61,306 nucleotides of DNA. It comes from Planctomycetota bacterium (lineage in GTDB: Bacteria > Planctomycetota > Planctomycetia > Pirellulales > Thermoguttaceae). A model generated the notes under the pieces. It did no database searches and had not been told where the DNA came from. It worked only from the letters and a program-made list of their open reading frames with translations. Each line of letters opens with the position of its first letter. The first letter of the stretch is position 1. The position numbers were made by a program, and so were the translations under genes. Shown here in pieces: positions 54,235-56,735 of this stretch. The stretch lies in contig JAKPGL010000020.1 of NCBI GenBank assembly GCA_029550925.1, forward strand, positions 1-61,306, written 5' to 3'.

Positions 54235-55143
54235 ATGTACATCTACCAGAATGCTGAGGGGGTGGTAGTCCAGGCGCCGGCCAAATTAAACCTGTTTTTT
54301 GAGATCCTGGGCAAACGGCCTGATGGGTATCATGAGATTGAAACGCTCATGACGCCGATCAGTTGGTATGATACGCTTATATTTCGGGAGGTGCCGAGCG
54401 GCCCAATCCATTTGAGTTGCCGAGTGGTTTTCCCTGCCCCGAAAAGGGAGTGCGATAAAAGGGAACTTGTGCCGGAAGGGCGCGAGAATTTGGCGTACCG
54501 AGCGGTGGAGTTGCTTCGTCAGGAGGCGGGCGTTCGTCGCGGGGCCTGGATGGGCTTAGTAAAGCGGATTCCACCAGGGGCTGGCCTGGGCGGCGGCTCC
54601 GCAGATGCGGCAGCCGCTCTGGCGGCTGCCAACCTGGCGTGGAAGCTCCATTGGCCTCGGTCGGCCCTGGCATCCTTAGCGGCCCGCTTAGGAAGCGATG
54701 TGCCCTTTTTCCTGGCCGACAGCTCCGCGATTTGTCGAGGTCGGGGAGAAAAGATCGAGCCGATTCCTTCTGGGGGGAGATGGCATTTTGTGGTCGTGCA
54801 TCCACCGGCTGGTTTATCCACTGCGGAAGTATATCGGCATTGTGAAGTCCCAGCGAGTGCTCGGTCGGTGGAACCGGTCTGTAAGGCATGGGAGGAAGGA
54901 GACCGGGCGGCTTTGGGAAAGCTGTTATGGAATCGGTTGCAGCCAACGGCCAAGAAGCTTTGTTCGTGGGTTGGTCGGGTCCAGGAACATTTGGAGCGTG
55001 AAGACGTCCTGGGCTGCCAACTGACCGGAAGTGGGAGTGCTTATTTTGCGTTGTGTCGTCACGCCCGCCACGCCCGGCGGATTGCCTGTCGCTTACACGC
55101 CACCGGTCTTGGGACCGTAGTGGCCGTTCATAGCTGCCGATGA
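54235..55143 (+). CDS. ispE: 4-diphosphocytidyl-2-C-methyl-D-erythritol kinase
   Basis: IspE phosphorylates CDP-methylerythritol in the MEP route to isoprenoids. The 302-residue GHMP-kinase fold protein has APAKLNLFFEILGKRPDGYHEIETLM near the start. The ATP loop PPGAGLGGGSADAAAALAAANL is at about 112-133. GSGSAYFALC near the end is motif 3. The ATG at 54235 has a weak ribosome-binding site. The gene order ispE-spoVG resembles that of Bacillus (where purR lies between), which supports both assignments. The gap to spoVG is 31 bases. Confidence 0.95.
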   Translation: MYIYQNAEGVVVQAPAKLNLFFEILGKRPDGYHEIETLMTPISWYDTLIFREVPSGPIHLSCRVVFPAPKRECDKRELVPEGRENLAYRAVELLRQEAGVRRGAWMGLVKRIPPGAGLGGGSADAAAALAAANLAWKLHWPRSALASLAARLGSDVPFFLADSSAICRGRGEKIEPIPSGGRWHFVVVHPPAGLSTAEVYRHCEVPASARSVEPVCKAWEEGDRAALGKLLWNRLQPTAKKLCSWVGRVQEHLEREDVLGCQLTGSGSAYFALCRHARHARRIACRLHATGLGTVVAVHSCR

Positions 55144-55174: not shown

Positions 55175-55777
55175 ATGGAGATCACCGAAGTCCGCATCAA
55201 GCTCATGGAGGAACCGGGCGAACGGCTCAAAGCCTTCTGCTCGATCACCTTCGACAATTCTTTTGTGGTCCGGGACCTGAAGATCATCGAAGGGGCCAAC
55301 GGACCGTTTGTGGCCATGCCCAGCCGAAAGCTGACCACCCATTGCCCCAAATGCCGAGCGAAAAACCATTTACGGGCCCAGTACTGCAATCAATGCGGCA
55401 AACGCCTCGATCCGTCTCCGTCGCCCAAAGACGCGGACGGCCGGATGAAGCTCTACGCCGATATCGCCCATCCGATCAACTCGGCTTGCCGGGAAATGAT
55501 CCAAAAGAAAGTCCTTGCTGCTTTTGAGGAAGAAAAGGCCCGCTCCAAGTTGCCCGGCTATGTGCCCAGCTACAGCGACTTTGACGAAGCGGAATACGAG
55601 GACTACATCCCGCCGGCCAAGTCGCCGGCTTCGGAAGCCAAACCAGTTTCCGAACAGGCCCCCCAAGTGCAACCCCCGGAAAAACCGCACGGACCGCATA
55701 CCGTGCCGGTTCAGCAACCGCACAGCCCCGGCGCCGCCTCCCAACAAGAGGGCTTCGGCGCCGGCATTTTTGAGTAG
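55175..55777 (+). CDS. spoVG: SpoVG-family protein with inserted zinc ribbon
   Basis: SpoVG proteins bind RNA or DNA and affect septation and gene expression. Residues 1-50 ([39 protein letters not shown]) and about 95-125 ([21 protein letters not shown]) match Bacillus SpoVG, which is about 97 residues. Between them about 45 residues are inserted, with Cys57, Cys60, Cys71 and Cys74 in CPKC...CNQCG, a zinc ribbon. A disordered Pro/Gln tail from about 135 ends the 200 residues. AAGGAAGGAGAG before the ATG is strong. It follows ispE by 31 bases, probably in one transcript. Confidence 0.9.
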
Positions 55778-55958: not shown

Positions 55959-56735
55959 ATGTCCTTGCAACTGAATGTGTATGCTCTGCCCACGATTGTA
56001 AAACCCGAAGAGTTGGCCGGCGGCACGGCAGTGGTTATTGATGTACTTCGGGCCACGACAACCATCACCTATGCCCTAGCCGCCGGCGCTCGGGAAGTGA
56101 TTGCTTGTACAGAGATCGACCAAGCCCGCCAGATCGCTTCCCAATATGCTGCCGGGGAGGTTCTTTTAGGGGGAGAACGGGGAGGTCGGCCCATCGACGG
56201 CTTCGACCTGGGCAATTCTCCCAGGGAATACACCCCGGAGAACGTGGCCGGTCGGACCATCGTCTTTACCACCAGTCATGGAACTGCCGCCCTGGCCCAC
56301 GTACGCACCGCTCGGCAGGTTTTTCTGGCCGCCTTTGTCAACGCGCAGGCGGTCTGCGACCGTTTGGCCGGCGAAGACGCAATCCATATCGTCTGCGCCG
56401 GCACCCAGGGCCAAATCAGCCGGGACGATGTGCTGGCAGCGGGGCTGTTGGTGGAACGGATTCAGCGATCCAGCGGCGACGCCTACCGGCTAAACGCCCA
56501 AGCCATCACCGCTCGGGAAAACTGGCGTTATAGTTTCGCCGTGCCCTTTGCCGTCGATGCCGAGCCGATCCCGACGGATCGTCTCGTCGCCGAGCTTCGG
56601 CAAAGCCTGGCTGGGCAACACCTCTGTGAGCTTGGTTACGAAGAAGATATTACGGCGGCCGCCCAGATGGATCGGTTCGATTGTACGCCCGCGATGGACC
56701 CGGCTACGATGCGAATCACGGCCGAGGTCGTCTGA
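55959..56735 (+). CDS. comB: 2-phosphosulfolactate phosphatase
   Basis: ComB hydrolyses 2-phosphosulfolactate to sulfolactate in coenzyme M and sulfonate metabolism; many bacteria without coenzyme M carry it too. The 258-residue protein has VVIDVLRATTTITYALAAGA (the family's DxLRATT motif, residues 26-45), VLLGGERGGRPIDGFDLGNSP and TIVFTTSHGTAAL, and CAGTQGQISRDDVLAAG, all family stretches. GGGAG precedes the ATG at 55959. It follows spoVG by 181 bases and is convergent with proS. No other sulfolactate genes are seen here. Confidence 0.9.
   Translation: MSLQLNVYALPTIVKPEELAGGTAVVIDVLRATTTITYALAAGAREVIACTEIDQARQIASQYAAGEVLLGGERGGRPIDGFDLGNSPREYTPENVAGRTIVFTTSHGTAALAHVRTARQVFLAAFVNAQAVCDRLAGEDAIHIVCAGTQGQISRDDVLAAGLLVERIQRSSGDAYRLNAQAITARENWRYSFAVPFAVDAEPIPTDRLVAELRQSLAGQHLCELGYEEDITAAAQMDRFDCTPAMDPATMRITAEVV

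Follow-up and report, generated by a model that had tools for sequence, protein, structure and literature searches.

SpoVG of Planctomycetota carries an inserted, predicted zinc ribbon and a candidate docking motif at the tip of its tail

The window analysed here, a stretch of 61,306 nucleotides from contig JAKPGL010000020.1 of a member of the Planctomycetota, encodes a SpoVG protein whose core is interrupted by a four-cysteine segment predicted to fold as a zinc ribbon, and whose predicted disordered tail ends in a conserved tip. The insert as such is already known as a published marker of planctomycetes and is not a novelty of one genome. It is near-invariant as a ribbon in this phylum, also occurs in Omnitrophota, and is carried by some viral copies of the gene. 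For the proposal that SpoVG has gained a second nucleic-acid-contacting module, joined in many planctomycetes by a partner-docking tail tip, which is drawn from sequences and models, we see about even chances. SpoVG is widespread and pleiotropic, and its mode of action (DNA versus RNA) is unsettled; a module added beside known contact residues, along with ribbonless relatives, provides natural pairs with and without the module for probing the core. The results revise a published clade marker, add a candidate docking motif and show phages with the ribboned form.

The spoVG reading frame starts with ATG 31 nt past the ispE stop codon, and in its product of 200 aa the cysteines stand at residues 57, 60, 71 and 74, exactly where a previous sequence-only reading of this DNA had placed them. 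The Pfam profile for SpoVG (PF04026; gathering score 29.6) matched residues 1–119 with 101 bits over profile positions 1–82, and this protein was the only PF04026 match in the window's genome. The NCBIfam equivalog NF009749 (septation regulator SpoVG) scored 93.4 bits in two stretches against a cut-off of 108, and the protein is therefore not filed as that equivalog. SpoVG sequences from the PDB align to residues 1–52 and 94–119 only, which places the ribbon inside the core. K52 and D96 are 43 residues apart in the window protein, a distance that ranges from 38 to 51 in planctomycetes (163 of 168 sequences) and is 7 in all nine Bacillota sequences; the net insertion comprises about 36 aa, so that the insert proposed earlier is present, its proposed length of about 45 residues being too high.

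In an AlphaFold2 model built on 108 aligned sequences, pLDDT reached 94–96 in every ten-residue block up to residue 80, 77–83 over residues 81–100 and 89–97 over residues 101–130. Beyond the C-terminal helix, which ends at residue 124, values fell to 70 over residues 131–140 and to 51–62 thereafter, and the disordered tail of about 65 residues claimed beforehand is thus about right in length. SpoVG crystal structures were the top fold matches of the model (Z 11.3–12.4; next match 4.5). The structures 2ia9 (B. subtilis) and 2i9x/2i9z (S. epidermidis) share the same core with the window protein (84–86 residues, 44–45 % identity in the structural alignment), and the RK pair is common to it and the SpoVG family (PF04026), whereas the ribbon insertion of 36 aa and the long tail with its tip are additions to these structures. 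Overall, the anatomy of core, ribbon and tail is well supported by alignment and model (Table 1).

Table 1. Coordinates of spoVG, its parts and the adjoining gene in the window
Feature	Position	Strand	Basis
spoVG with inserted predicted zinc ribbon and long tail, 200 aa	55175..55777	+	ORF, Pfam, PDB alignment, AF2
SpoVG core, first part, residues 1–52, ending with R51-K52	55175..55330	+	sequence alignment
Insert-holding loop, residues 53–95, 43 aa (7 aa in Bacillota)	55331..55459	+	alignment
Predicted ribbon, C57-x2-C60-x3-N64-x6-C71-x2-C74	55343..55396	+	Pfam, alignment, AF2, fold comparison
SpoVG core, second part, from D96 through residue 124 (end of the helix)	55460..55546	+	alignment, AF2
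Pro/Gln-rich tail, residues 125–200, predicted disordered from about 131	55547..55774	+	AF2
Conserved C-terminal tip FGAGIFE	55754..55774	+	motif counts
ispE, directly upstream, 31 nt gap	54235..55143	+	ORF, Pfam/NCBIfam, gene-order survey

The ribbon just reached the gathering score of the DZR profile (PF12773; 27.9 bits against 27.3) at residues 57–79, the best stretch covering 23 of 45 profile positions and hence one ribbon of two; 86 of the 108 aligned relatives matched DZR at E 0.001. The match to the RanBP2-type profile PF00641 stayed below its cut-off (E 0.0037; 16.9 bits against 27). The spacing C-x2-C-x3-N-x6-C-x2-C is common to the SpoVG ribbon and RanBP2/NZF fingers, but the Trp two residues ahead of the first Cys is absent, and the RanBP2 consensus W-x-C-x2-4-C-x3-N-x6-C is matched by spacing and Asn only. 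Modelled alone, the ribbon was predicted less well than within the whole protein (mean pLDDT 72.5). It superposed on the ribbons of RadD, several RanBP2/NZF proteins and eL40 at 0.5–1.1 Å over about 25 residues, with weak statistics (Foldseek E at least 0.19, Z at most 3.5). Archaeal eL40 was also its top short sequence match in the PDB, again a weak one (E 0.026); eL40 is a free-standing ribosomal protein, whereas the SpoVG ribbon is an insertion. A fold like that of RanBP2/NZF/eL40 ribbons is predicted on these weak statistics, and the ribbon may bind zinc. Within the reach of sequence and model, the earlier proposal of a four-cysteine ribbon set into the SpoVG core is correct.

The distribution of the insert was surveyed with PF04026 in 392 genomes of the window's phylum, 233 of which matched; 57 of these were searched again for weaker places, and among 14 control genomes Bacillus subtilis alone matched. 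The planctomycete sequences studied represent part of the places among the matches listed, 30 of the 233 genomes (best E 2.2e-24 to 2e-19) lying outside. All four cysteines were present in 126 of 131 distinct profile-found sequences, by which chance or artefact as the origin of the insert and its absence from most relatives, named beforehand as one outcome that would refute the proposal, are both rejected. Five exceptions are kept in this count: the sequence at L168 is cut by a contig end, L177 contributes two frames from a single broken gene, L164 the second piece of a gene that seems to be frameshifted, and L172 a divergent ribbonless homologue. A further 37 sequences (L002–L038), counted apart and found via patterns that include the ribbon itself, all possess the four cysteines. 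Among ribboned proteins, the C-x2-C-x3-N-x6-C-x2-C spacing is exact in 161 of 163 from planctomycetes, in 32 of 34 from Omnitrophota and in all nine viral ones, and in planctomycetes the ribbon cysteines, N64 and G75 are conserved to the same degree as the core.

According to Gupta, Bhandari and Naushad (2012), SpoVG contains an insert of 32–36 aa in every planctomycete sequenced at the time and in no organism outside this group, which makes it a marker of the phylum (PMC3444138); the words zinc, cysteine and metal were not found in the text of that article, figures aside. The window protein shows the features of this indel, i.e., the same protein, the same phylum and a large insert at a conserved site. 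The restriction to planctomycetes does not hold, as 34 distinct Omnitrophota sequences carry the insert. No description of the near-invariant ribbon nature, the presence in Omnitrophota, the tail tip or ribboned phage copies was found in searches of the open-licence PMC literature.

Some planctomycete genomes additionally contain very divergent, insert-free SpoVG-like stretches (L171–L176, L178–L180) with 23–37 bits to PF04026, among which only that of L172 also matched the window protein. At two planctomycete loci (L044, L101) the SpoVG frame continues into a Glu-rich tail and meets no stop codon within the sequence read. A SpoVG 63 % identical to that of the window was detected on a contig labelled Candidatus Nealsonbacteria from a 9.1-Mb assembly (L005); this label is probably wrong and the genome most likely that of a planctomycete.

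Two loci with ribboned SpoVG (L039, L040) bear the NCBI label Candidatus Omnitrophota, a phylum of the PVC group. Mis-binning was considered for them because L005, likewise labelled as another phylum, most likely belongs to a planctomycete, and was rejected on three grounds: the 193 genomes of their phylum (that of G392, which includes L039 and L040 and forms the Omnitrophota set) do not overlap with the 392 genomes of the window's phylum; most full-length Omnitrophota matches among those listed measure about 340–390 nt and hence bear the insert; and a tree calculated from insert-free columns places both loci in a separate, weakly supported group. The profile search detected SpoVG in 160 of the 193 Omnitrophota genomes, and the 52 distinct sequences read comprise 34 ribboned proteins, eight ribbonless orthologues and ten short divergent paralogues. 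In the phylum of L041, labelled Bacillota, SpoVG was found in 75 of 101 genomes, and among the matches listed none carried the insert or spanned more than 249 nt. Short ribbonless paralogues with open frames of about 94–119 aa (L185, L186, L223–L230) occur in several Omnitrophota, in some genomes beside a ribboned SpoVG.

The tree was based on 77 columns without the insert and 107 rows, obtained by removing long, broken and paralogous rows by name and by identity thinning (117 rows with viral sequences), and has few resolved forks. Planctomycetes and Omnitrophota were separated from Bacillota with support of 100/99, planctomycetes with 93/82 and Omnitrophota with 90/52. Seven ribbonless Omnitrophota sequences form one clade and the eighth (L198) another branch; this requires two changes on the best tree, the ribbonless sequences being united in 3 % of bootstrap trees, and well-supported branches force one change only. 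One old gain of the ribbon followed by two losses fits the best tree without being proven by it, and separate gains are possible. The eight ribbonless orthologues indicate that the ribbon is not essential to SpoVG in Omnitrophota. Their otherwise intact cores, and the ispE gene still adjoining one of them (L298), would also suit a ribbon that is a merely structural or neutral clade marker, i.e., an old insertion tolerated in a loop and folded by zinc without conferring a new function. Of a neutral loop, however, more frequent decay would be expected, and the cysteines, N64 and G75, conserved like the core in planctomycetes, are also kept in the viral copies; we regard this explanation as improbable.

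Gene order supports orthology and vertical descent. Among loci with sufficient flank, ispE was found directly upstream of spoVG at 148 of 159 in planctomycetes and at 44 of 45 in Omnitrophota, some loci in these counts duplicating one gene; the lone Omnitrophota locus without adjoining ispE (L229) is a paralogue. In stretches of 8–10 kb, ispE was located upstream in 11 of 12 planctomycetes, and neither glmU nor prs was detected near spoVG in any of these 12. All five Omnitrophota stretches of this size display the order ispE-spoVG-glmU-prs, two of them (L039, L040) with clpX between spoVG and glmU. All six Bacillota stretches of 8–10 kb contain spoVG-glmU-prs, with ispE 1.5–2.4 kb upstream of spoVG in three and not found in the other three (stretches of ten kb). 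The claim that spoVG stays next to ispE as in Firmicutes therefore stands for the adjacency itself and only in part for the comparison. In the window, both genes probably share one operon, and the window gene is supported as the vertically inherited SpoVG of planctomycetes. The gene 3' of spoVG (55959–56735) matches 2-phosphosulpholactate phosphatase.

Tails, defined as more than 20 residues past position 120, are present in 149 planctomycete proteins, and 82 of these carry the tip F[GS]xG[IVLM][FLVIM] 0–3 residues from the C-terminus; six further planctomycete proteins have near-matches. The sequence-only reading had noted the tail but not this tip. Within the profile-found subset the tip is present in 46 and missing in 66 of 112 tailed proteins, a few broken pieces included. 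The motif did not occur elsewhere in planctomycete tails, and shuffled tails contained it 0.02 times on average and at most once; it had been written after the ends were seen, which makes the shuffle a post hoc control. Omnitrophota tails are short (median 18), and reading by eye of 34 ribboned Omnitrophota ends and nine viral ends revealed no tip. Two DNA patterns, which cover part of the tip variants only, were applied to the window's genome. The first, for FGxG[IV]F[DE]-stop, matched spoVG alone. Sharing of the tip with other proteins of this genome was rejected: the second pattern yielded three places, of which none was supported, two ending in TGG without a stop and the third (L246) coinciding with the end of no ORF of at least 80 aa. 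The tip looks like a candidate docking motif, judged from its sequence.

By alignment, R51-K52 of the window protein occupies the place of K50-R51 in S. aureus SpoVG. The ribbon starts directly after this conserved basic pair and upstream of residues 103–108, the counterpart of the six-residue DNA-specificity stretch of the C-terminal helix. Replacing either K50 or R51 of the S. aureus protein by alanine abolished detectable DNA binding, whereas sequence specificity is set by six residues in the C-terminal helix (PMC3688583). Listeria SpoVG bound two sRNAs in vitro with Kd values of 129 and 273 nM and another sRNA very weakly; 6S and SRP RNA were not bound (PMC4959528). Among ribboned planctomycete sequences, the first and second position of the RK pair are basic in 160 and 161 of 163, respectively, and the 25 residues after PSRK have a median net charge of +3 (163 distinct segments). 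That the ribbon alters RNA/DNA specificity, as the sequence-only reading had suggested, is plausible by analogy, because it is tethered beside residues important in S. aureus and Borrelia SpoVG.

The position that, by spacing, would correspond to the RNA-stacking residue of ZRANB2 is His in 103 of 163 planctomycete sequences, whereas 25 of 34 sequences from Omnitrophota have Glu or Val there; 128 of the 163 and 20 of the 34 retain the next-but-one Arg. The missing RanBP2 Trp and the Glu or Val in Omnitrophota argue against a simple ZRANB2-like reading of RNA.

In the explanation we favour, a C4 ribbon of RanBP2/NZF/eL40 shape, judged from sequence and model, replaces the loop after R51-K52 and would hold one Zn2+. 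It may form a second nucleic-acid contact beside the RK pair and the specificity helix, a role for which the chances appear roughly balanced, and this added contact could widen or bias the grip of SpoVG on RNA (or ssDNA). Behind the C-terminal helix, the disordered tail would present its tip (FGAGIFE in the window protein) for docking to a partner protein. Like SpoVG of Firmicutes, the ribboned protein might thereby regulate globally at the post-transcriptional or nucleoid level, extended by a contact module and a tether. Several observations count against this explanation: eight Omnitrophota orthologues lack the ribbon, the RanBP2 Trp is absent and the presumed stacking position varies, the tip is missing from the majority of the profile-found tailed proteins and from the Omnitrophota and viral ends, and the same ribbon fold serves in binding to proteins (Ran, ubiquitin) and not only to RNA. 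The last of these leads to a less probable alternative, in which the core binds nucleic acid and the ribbon mainly docks to protein (ribosome, RNA polymerase, RNase or a host factor), as do Nup153/RanBP2 or NZF fingers. The closest folds do include RanBP2/NZF fingers in complex with Ran or ubiquitin, and the tail tip likewise resembles a docking motif; however, the ribbon is basic and inserted directly after the DNA-contact pair, and the ribosomal protein eL40 and the helicase RadD are about equally close. Two CxxC pairs beside the binding site would further be compatible with a redox or zinc-level switch, binding being altered by Cys oxidation or zinc scarcity. Small C4 ribbons are usually structural, though, and no sequence feature points to a switch, which we consider very improbable.

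Phage-borne spoVG has already been reported from the human gut (PMC10294663). Common to that report and the present data is the gene on phages; the ribboned form, found at nine IMG/VR loci, differs. In total, 35 viral contig loci in IMG/VR carry SpoVG, 26 of them ribbonless; among the nine ribboned loci, the proteins of L249 and L250 are identical, as are those of L253 and L254. Of 12 SpoVG records in INPHARED, 11 cross the site without an insert and the remaining one matches only in part; the corresponding numbers for ten plasmid records are nine and one. Addition of viral rows to the tree resulted in Bacillota no longer forming one side of a branch, and viral placements are nearest-neighbour hints only. 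No IspE match was detected in the flanks read of the 35 viral loci. Neighbouring genes were scanned, in part, for seven of the nine ribboned loci (L249 and L254 lying outside the scan), and at four of the seven a head or packaging gene lies no more than about 3 kb away. L250 has genes for terminase, portal and head morphogenesis, L251 and L252 have a major head protein, and L255 has a terminase. A polynucleotide-kinase-like gene is present at L248, a weak protease-like match was obtained at L247, and two neighbours of L253 had no match in PHROGs.

A more far-reaching reading, which we offer tentatively and hold to be rather doubtful, would make SpoVG of planctomycetes and Omnitrophota a two-module RNA regulator and hub akin to Hfq or CsrA, whose ribboned gene was captured by phages with the tip left out. 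A RanBP2/eL40-like ribbon, acquired long ago beside the contact pair, would then have enabled the reading of single-stranded or structured RNA; the FGxGIF tip in many planctomycetes could recruit a partner, e.g., a nuclease or the ribosome, and phages might hold the ribboned gene near head genes to steer host or phage RNA. The terminase encoded near the ribboned SpoVG at L250 (L250:18-1352) matches the Pfam Hint_2 domain as well and, judged from its sequence, may carry an intein.
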